Below, piece by piece: positions 162 through 539 of a stretch of DNA of 64,000 nucleotides. The number at the start of each line of letters is the position of its first letter. Position 1 is the stretch's first letter. Where the stretch lies: assembly GCA_021775415.1 (NCBI GenBank), contig JAJFHV010000013.1, positions 1 through 64,000 on the forward strand, in the 5' to 3' direction. This stretch comes from Hyphomicrobiales bacterium. GTDB taxonomy: Bacteria > Pseudomonadota > Alphaproteobacteria > Rhizobiales > Rhizobiaceae. The position numbers and the translations under genes were made by a program. A model generated the notes under the pieces. It ran no database searches and was not told the origin of the DNA. It saw nothing but the letters and a program-made list of their open reading frames with translations.

Positions 162-200
162 TTCACCCTCATCCTGAGCCTGTCGAAGGGCCAGGGTGAA
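162..200 (+). repeat. Palindromic intergenic repeat, left copy
   Basis: A 39-bp element with perfect 8-bp inverted ends (TTCACCCT and AGGGTGAA) and the core CCTGAGCCTGTCGAAGG. An inverted, almost identical copy lies at 502-539. It ends 9 bp before the GIY-YIG start codon, and its right edge supplies the AAGGG at 199-203 that could serve as ribosome binding site. Repeats with this core are, from memory, scattered through many proteobacterial genomes; copy number in this genome cannot be seen here. Confidence 0.8.
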
Positions 201-208
201 GGGCGACG

Positions 209-532
209 GTGAACGAAATGGAAGCAACAATCTACATCGTGAAATGCAGTGACGACTCCTATTACACCGGCCTTACAAAACAGGAGATTGATGCAAGAAT
301 TTGGGAGCACAATGCTGGAATCAATCGTGGCTATACCTTCAAGCGAAGGCCGGTAGAACTGGTGTTCATGGAAGTCTACGAACGAATAACCGATGCGATT
401 GCCAGAGAACGCCAAATCAAGGGATGGTCACGCGCAAAAAAGGAAGCTCTGATTGCATTGAATTATGAAGACCTTCCCGAACTTTCAAAGAACCGGCAAG
501 CGCACCCTCGCCCTTCGACAGGCTCAGGATGA
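209..532 (+). CDS. GIY-YIG nuclease family protein (UPF0213-like)
   Basis: A 107-residue single-domain protein of the small GIY-YIG superfamily, related to UPF0213/YhbQ-type proteins. Visible motifs are TIYIVK followed by YYTGLT (the GIY and YIG strands), R30 in the first helix (DARIWEH) and E67 in ARERQIKGWSR, the expected metal-binding glutamate region. The GTG start has AAGGG five bases upstream; an in-frame ATG at 218 is the alternative. The last ten codons and the stop lie inside the downstream repeat copy (502-539), so the tail AHPRPSTGSG is repeat-encoded. The family is predicted to cleave DNA; the substrate is unknown, and a link to the flanking repeats is my inference. Confidence 0.85.
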   Translation: MNEMEATIYIVKCSDDSYYTGLTKQEIDARIWEHNAGINRGYTFKRRPVELVFMEVYERITDAIARERQIKGWSRAKKEALIALNYEDLPELSKNRQAHPRPSTGSG

Positions 533-539
533 GGGTGAA
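502..539 (-). repeat. Palindromic intergenic repeat, right (inverted) copy
   Basis: The reverse complement matches the copy at 162-200 over about 37 bases, with one internal mismatch and a different last base or two. It provides the 3' end and TGA stop (530-532) of the GIY-YIG gene. The two copies point towards each other across the gene, giving a small inverted-repeat-bounded unit of about 380 bp. Confidence 0.8.

Follow-up and report, generated by a model that had tools for sequence, protein, structure and literature searches.

Free-standing GIY-YIG homing endonucleases are small nuclease genes that lie in intergenic DNA and have a patchy distribution. Among the palindromic repeats (REPs) of genomes, those of the CGTC type were reported by Di Nocera, De Gregorio and Rocco in 2013 from five phyla, including the dRS3 repeats of Neisseria (PMC3733652). 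In the accessible part of that paper, CGTC REPs are said to "apparently lack a dedicated transposase", the transposase genes found among the repeats are put down to a few fortuitous associations, and REPtrons, the units of REP and RAYT transposase, are said to be possibly absent from some species that have GTAG REPs (PMC3733652). Because no transposase adjoins the CGTC REPs, their mode of spread was left open by these authors, and the term 'GIY' does not occur in the main text (PMC3733652). The term is likewise absent from the accessible text of a 2025 REP survey (PMC12306157), a 2018 HuH survey (PMC6006769) and a 2021 paper on TnpAREP (PMC8266576). A full-text literature search with little subscription coverage returned no title or abstract that links GIY-YIG proteins with REP-type repeats, and in the accessible part of a Moraxella paper a RAYT and a GIY-YIG gene appear, unlinked, among ten clade-specific genes (PMC9465073).

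The window, by which we mean the whole 64-kb stretch of DNA that was analysed, starts at a contig edge. A left palindromic repeat with the core TCATCCTGAGCCTGTCGAAGG occupies positions 162..198 on the plus strand and is followed, after 19 bp, by a GIY-YIG nuclease gene of clade A at 218..532 on the plus strand (PF01541, E 1.3e-16). The ATG at 218 is where the alignment of homologues begins, and a GTG at 209 is one possible alternative start. The right repeat, an inverted copy, lies at 503..539 on the minus strand and encodes the residues H-P-R-P-S-T-G-S-G and the TGA stop. The two inverted arms are 37 nt each, are 97% complementary with an exact core, and are separated by a spacer of 304 nt. 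When the 22-nt core was searched for with up to three mismatches, it was found only at these two sites in the window, exact at both, and not once in 100 shuffles. An earlier note on this DNA had placed the gene between near-identical inverted palindromes, as the arms confirm; it was also right that the right copy encodes the stop codon, and the number of terminal residues covered by this copy has to be corrected from ten to nine. Folding of single repeat copies as single-stranded DNA was modest (z -2.0 and -1.1). In the rest of the window, a 675-aa ORF downstream at 788-2815 contains a 92-nt internal direct repeat (74% identical, spacing 144), and a Pfam search with this ORF gave no match at E 0.001.

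PF01541 was the only domain that Pfam found in the gene product, with no HuH/tyrosine transposase (RAYT). An alignment of 40 homologues contained 23 invariant columns, including Y9, G21, R30, H34, N35, E67, K71 and W73 (counted from GTG 209), which we take to be a typical, intact and presumably catalytic GIY-YIG core. An AF2 prediction with a mean pLDDT of 83.9 had UPF0213 proteins as its top fold matches, and the best match beyond UPF0213 was a weak one to the branched-DNA nuclease Slx1 (E 0.06). Clades were defined by score and sequence motif, independently of the repeats, with a cut-off for clade A of 75 bits in the genome co-occurrence test and 70 bits elsewhere. In a tree of 144 rows, clade B was supported at 100/100 and the YhbQ-like clade C at 100/99; clade A needed two changes and was a single group in only 24% of the bootstrap trees, C being either nested in it or next to it. 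The protein of the window fell outside the YhbQ-like group (5 rows, 100/99). Loci with in-frame stops were left out of the sequence alignment (A2), and such stops were present in 5 of the 90 loci of the class sample described below (L116, L120, L125, L126 and L129). A gene copy in Rhizobium redzepovicii (L090:3001-3750) is probably decayed and truncated, judging from GIY-YIG similarity that ends after about residue 74 and a reading frame that continues into other, partly repeat-like sequence.

The flanks of the gene were compared in three samples. The nearest homologues were the best 80 of 200 relatives in named genomes (57-79% identical); by their titles these belong to Rhizobium, Mesorhizobium, Brucella, Devosia and the like, and to MAGs. 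The class and phylum of the window's genome were deduced from these relatives. These 80 named loci were found by similarity to the window's protein and are not independent, since 40 of them fall into 11 groups that share both flanks, the other 40 being singletons. The class sample consisted of 90 loci among the matches listed, taken near score order with one (G004 contig 37) skipped, and the phylum sample of 70 loci, 30 of them given and 40 picked from multi-copy and non-class genomes. A first, narrow repeat pattern overlooked the majority of the Rhizobiales copies, as several forms of stem and loop exist, and it was replaced by a motif-free comparison in which the 200 bp to the left of a gene were matched in inverted orientation to the 200 bp to its right (blastn, E <=1e-3). 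Loci with less than 200 bp on a side were untestable (L013 and L086 of the named sample; L097, L119, L122 and L173 of the class sample). The motif-free total also omits six phylum loci, namely the true duplicates L184, L197, L207 and L208 and the non-duplicates L191, which was flanked in the phylum-sample test, and L213, which was too short; the phylum-sample flank test itself (69 loci) still counts the four duplicates.

An inverted match was found at 149 of 223 loci of clades A and B (54/78 in the named, 52/81 in the class and 43/64 in the phylum sample), and the other 74 had no detectable inverted pair. The same test gave a match at 6 of 556 neighbouring ORFs of these loci (odds ratio 185), at none of five loci of the YhbQ-like clade, and at 0/338 and 0/272 positions displaced by 600-900 bp (0/610 together). 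When left and right flanks were paired at random across different loci, 11 of 200 pairs matched, because the repeats resemble each other between loci. With a variant-tolerant pattern, at least one repeat was present within 400 bp in 78 of the 80 named loci and repeats were present on both sides in 60, and there were 250 repeats near the genes vs 30 in the remaining 393 kb. The earlier note had named two outcomes as telling against its proposal, homologues that have no repeats beside them and repeats equally common beside unrelated genes; the homologues and the neighbouring ORFs gave neither.

Flanks of 90 loci contained 111 repeats, with 1.05 expected from shuffles. The first 150 bp upstream of the gene had 3.6 repeats per kb, and bins at least 450 bp away had 0 to 0.16. 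The nearest upstream repeat was in + orientation in 29 of 37 cases (p 0.0008) and the nearest downstream repeat in - orientation in 27 of 35 (p 0.002). Stem variants covaried (ATCC...GGAC and ATGG...CCAC), with a middle part that was either short or long. In 12 of the 80 named homologues the downstream repeat began inside the ORF, and 8 of these 12 repeats began 20 bases before the ORF end, the same as in the window.

The repeats beside clade B genes consist of a C/T-GTC tag, a stem starting with AT, a loop and a CCA tail. The clade B detector imposed GTC followed by A/G and C/T, a stem that is 7 or longer and may contain one mismatch, and CC; it left free the total length, the third base of the tail and the base preceding the tag. 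Among the 187 elements found, in which four loci were counted twice, 138 had the CGTC geometry (8-4-8 in 89, 8-5-8 in 22 and 9-5-9 in 27), the CCA end was present in 181, and the base preceding GTC was C in 140, T in 42 and A in 5. Clade B repeats have the features described for CGTC REPs in tag, stem, loop and tail. Repeats of clade A, including those in the window, are of a related type, TCATCCTGAG...TCGAAGG. The CCTCAT start of the window's repeat fits the CCTC variant, the 8-9 bp stem and the CCA tail are absent, and this repeat falls outside the strict CGTC definition. Forms intermediate between the window type and the CGTC repeats were present at two loci (L105 and L131). When the class sample was divided by clade, the window's type (R2) was detected at 24 of 35 clade A loci and the CGTC type (R1) at none, with 11 having neither; at 49 clade B loci R1 was detected at 23 and R2 at one, with 25 having neither, a category that depends on the detectors used.

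Genomes with several copies of the gene allowed the flanks of each gene to be compared with those of its paralogues. For 73 loci (two of them YhbQ-like) from 27 genomes that each contributed two or more, the left and right flanks of the same gene matched with a mean of 36.5 bits, vs 18.2 bits with the flanks of paralogues, and the own partner flank was the best match in 40 of 46 informative loci (p=1e-4, 0/10,000 permutations). In one 8.8-Mb genome (G440), the L226 paralogue lies between perfect copies of one repeat type, of which there are 41 genome-wide, and the L227 paralogue between copies of another type, of which there are 120; these counts allow up to two mismatches, and the reversed controls gave 0. 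Among the places listed (41/41 of the L226 type and 100/120 of the L227 type), there were 10 and 14 close pairs, respectively, within 100 bp, and all were in + then - order, as around the genes. The spacer of the dispersed L226-type dimers started with ACGTCT in 8 of 8 that were fetched and ended with AGACGT in 6 of 8, like that of the gene-bearing unit. For the L227 type and in a second genome (G012), the inner ends of the dispersed dimers differed from those of the gene-bearing unit, so that inner-end identity was observed in one of three families checked. By eye, no target duplication was seen at 8 dispersed dimers. One or two bases outside the tag there was a pyrimidine bias (0.97, 0.78), which is at least partly due to the C of the CGTC tag.

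Repeats were dispersed in genomes as monomers and dimers. The window's own genome has few of them: a 20-mer (up to two mismatches) gave 8 matches and its reversed control 0, and a 14-mer (up to one mismatch) gave 15, 7 of them exact, with 3 in the control. Two further copy pairs in this genome are short inverted dimers, on contigs C2 and C11. The genome-wide count that had been suggested earlier, for this genome and its relatives, ranged from these few copies up to hundreds per genome elsewhere.

Gene and repeats also co-occurred across genomes. Among 289 genomes of the class, 60 of the 114 that have the gene contained at least three pattern-matching repeats, vs 20 of the 175 that lack it (OR 8.6, p 4e-14), and the window's repeat type R2 was associated with clade A with an OR of 35, both statistics ignoring kinship and genome size. 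Fewer than three pattern-matching repeats were found in 54 of the 114 gene-positive genomes. Several gene copies per genome were frequent, and of the 114 gene-positive genomes in the class sample one (G105) reached the maximum of 11 GIY-YIG matches. A clade B profile was used to search again the 17 genomes that had five or more repeats and no first match; 15 remained without a gene, and the other two gave weak matches of 28 and 25 bits. Repeats can thus persist, or arise, without a detectable gene. One such genome, 99% complete (G232), has 110 CGTC-type pattern matches and no GIY-YIG gene by either profile.

To cover a wider range of organisms, 14 named records were picked from 45 matches in a plasmid collection, and an inverted flank match was found in 8 of them, from Azospirillum, Novosphingobium, Neisseria gonorrhoeae, Aeromonas caviae, Methylobacterium, Shinella, Rhizobium CIAT894 and Sinorhizobium meliloti; the match in the last of these was weak and the palindrome different. 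The inverted match was absent in the other 6, which were Planktothrix, Spirosoma, Photobacterium, two plasmids of the R. tumorigenes group and B. subtilis yazA. By eye, GTCAT-tagged palindromes were seen in Spirosoma and GTCATTCTGAG repeats in Planktothrix. On plasmid p1 of Planktothrix agardhii, a clade B-like gene (L344:1192-1476) is located between the gene of a type IIL restriction enzyme and drmA, which belongs to a DISARM defence system.

The synteny of 40 of the 80 named loci indicates that the gene is often inherited in place and itself moves rarely. At one orthologous site in Brucella/Ochrobactrum, seven loci were aligned (L028, L029, L035, L038, L047, L055 and L061), and here the repeats vary in number and stem between species while the gene is kept. 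Rhizobium sp. L1K21 has two copies of the unit in unrelated surroundings, with 858 aligned bp at 93% identity; on the right, the homology stops at the outer border of the repeat, and on the left it extends about 190 bp beyond the first repeat. In Azospirillum lipoferum 4B the unit (L345:1057-1675), made up of the gene and a repeat dimer on each side, lies between sufB and sufC, which puts a nuclease gene and four palindromes into the suf operon. The sufB-sufC gap of A. ramasamyi, A. oryzae and strain B510 contains no such gene and, by eye, no CGTC-type repeat. The matching parts of A. ramasamyi and A. lipoferum 4B at this site are 97% identical, and strain B510 has an unrelated inverted repeat there. 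Presence and absence of the whole unit was also observed between R. phaseoli and strain R634. At the L043 site, relatives hold other sequence, which makes the site uninformative on insertion. The L1K21 duplication and the Azospirillum sufB-sufC case point to movement of the whole unit. The earlier suggestion that gene and repeats are moved or maintained together thus agrees with the presence/absence in Rhizobium and Azospirillum and with the one duplicated unit. The comparison of strains with and without the unit, proposed in the same place, was successful at the level of the whole unit; a search in Rhizobium and Azospirillum yielded no empty site precise to the base, because the intergenic regions are too diverged to show more than presence or absence of the whole unit. 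None of the junctions is base-precise, and no target duplication was seen.

We propose that the small single-domain GIY-YIG nuclease acts on its cognate repeats and spreads them, a reading to which we assign a probability of about two in three. Each nuclease would be specific for its own type of repeat, most likely recognised when single-stranded or supercoiled DNA folds into a hairpin or cruciform. It would nick at the repeat, perhaps at the tag end, which would disseminate or amplify repeat dimers. The gene-bearing unit would be autonomous, and the short 'tag-out' dimers in other places would be non-autonomous copies of it. The role would be the one proposed for RAYT transposases on GTAG REPs, taken by an unrelated enzyme. 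Binding, cleavage and movement in trans by the nuclease are what we infer from the genomic pattern, which makes the GIY-YIG family a good candidate for the enzymatic partner that a large group of genomic repeats has lacked. More tentatively, and with odds a little short of even, the GIY-YIG/REP units may constitute a new class of mobile element whose sole enzyme is a single-domain GIY-YIG nuclease; the CGTC-type REPs that range from Alphaproteobacteria to Neisseria, perhaps together with related repeats of Cyanobacteria and Bacteroidota, would then be its non-autonomous, MITE-like offspring, mobilised in trans through recognition of the cognate hairpin.

The main rival explanation is that some other enzyme moves the repeats and that the GIY-YIG gene is a free-standing passenger, similar to a homing endonuclease, that invades repeat dimers. 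This would account for the gene being located where dimers of the same + then - order have their short spacer, and for the 15 of 17 repeat-rich genomes in which no gene was detected. We nevertheless consider it unlikely, as a generic invader would not give each paralogue its own repeat type or make the clade track the repeat family, and as the other transposases among CGTC repeats were regarded as few and fortuitous in the accessible part of PMC3733652. The up to 11 matches per genome, the stops in 5/90 class loci, the truncated copy in R. redzepovicii and the absence of the gene in close relatives are better explained by a dispensable or selfish gene than by a domesticated host nuclease that trims or resolves repeat hairpins or cruciforms, stays near them for autoregulation and spreads nothing. 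Such domestication, which we regard as improbable, would fit with a locus that is kept within syntenic groups, with a fold near UPF0213 and, weakly, Slx1, and with repeats that, in 12/80 named loci, reach into the 3' end of the ORF.

That the repeats serve the gene only to terminate transcription or, as hairpins, to influence mRNA stability is a very improbable explanation. Palindromes immediately upstream and downstream of a gene are what it predicts, but a terminator does not need an inverted cognate copy upstream, the same repeat types reach up to hundreds of copies per genome, and the inverted pair was absent at YhbQ-like genes (0/5) and rare at neighbouring ORFs (6/556). A terminator-only role was rejected on these two controls together with the displaced positions. 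Chance, or an artefact of intergenic hotspots, for which no evidence was found, has a negligible probability and was ruled out by the 0/610 displaced controls and the odds ratio of 185 against neighbouring ORFs.

For the spread of CGTC REPs, the findings point to a candidate enzyme family with repeat-specific partners, and the pairs of paralogue and repeat within a single genome make this directly testable. If the enzyme acts on the repeats, REP mobilisation would have been taken up by a second, independent enzyme class, and a function could be given to many genes whose only annotation is 'GIY-YIG nuclease family protein'.

Compared with known systems, the nearest solved structures by both sequence and fold are those of the UPF0213/YhbQ/YazA proteins (1zg2, 1ywl), YazA being, we assume, a UPF0213 member. 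These differ in their surroundings, as the five YhbQ-like loci and B. subtilis yazA, which sits between trmNF and rsmI, have no flanking inverted pair. Unlike the GIY-YIG homing endonucleases, the 94-residue core described here has no visible separate target-binding domain, and the gene is bounded by repeats of its own type. The clade B repeats share with CGTC REPs the tag, the AT stem start, the geometry, the CCA tail and the occurrence as dimers, whereas no associated transposase is reported in the accessible part of PMC3733652 and the window's repeat is without the CCA tail and the 8-9 bp stem. From REPtrons the units differ in their enzyme, a GIY-YIG nuclease of about 94 residues instead of a HuH tyrosine transposase, and in copy number, the GIY-YIG gene being often multi-copy and tnpAREP, according to the accessible part of PMC8266576, mostly single copy per genome. 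The two systems are alike in that a gene is bounded by inverted cognate palindromes (with 74/223 loci here lacking a detectable pair), that a genome may contain several repeat-specific enzymes, that dimers are dispersed, and that repeat number correlates with the gene. The REP/RAYT analogy drawn in the earlier note therefore holds in the boundary of the unit, the cognate repeat type, the co-occurrence across genomes and the structure of the dimers.
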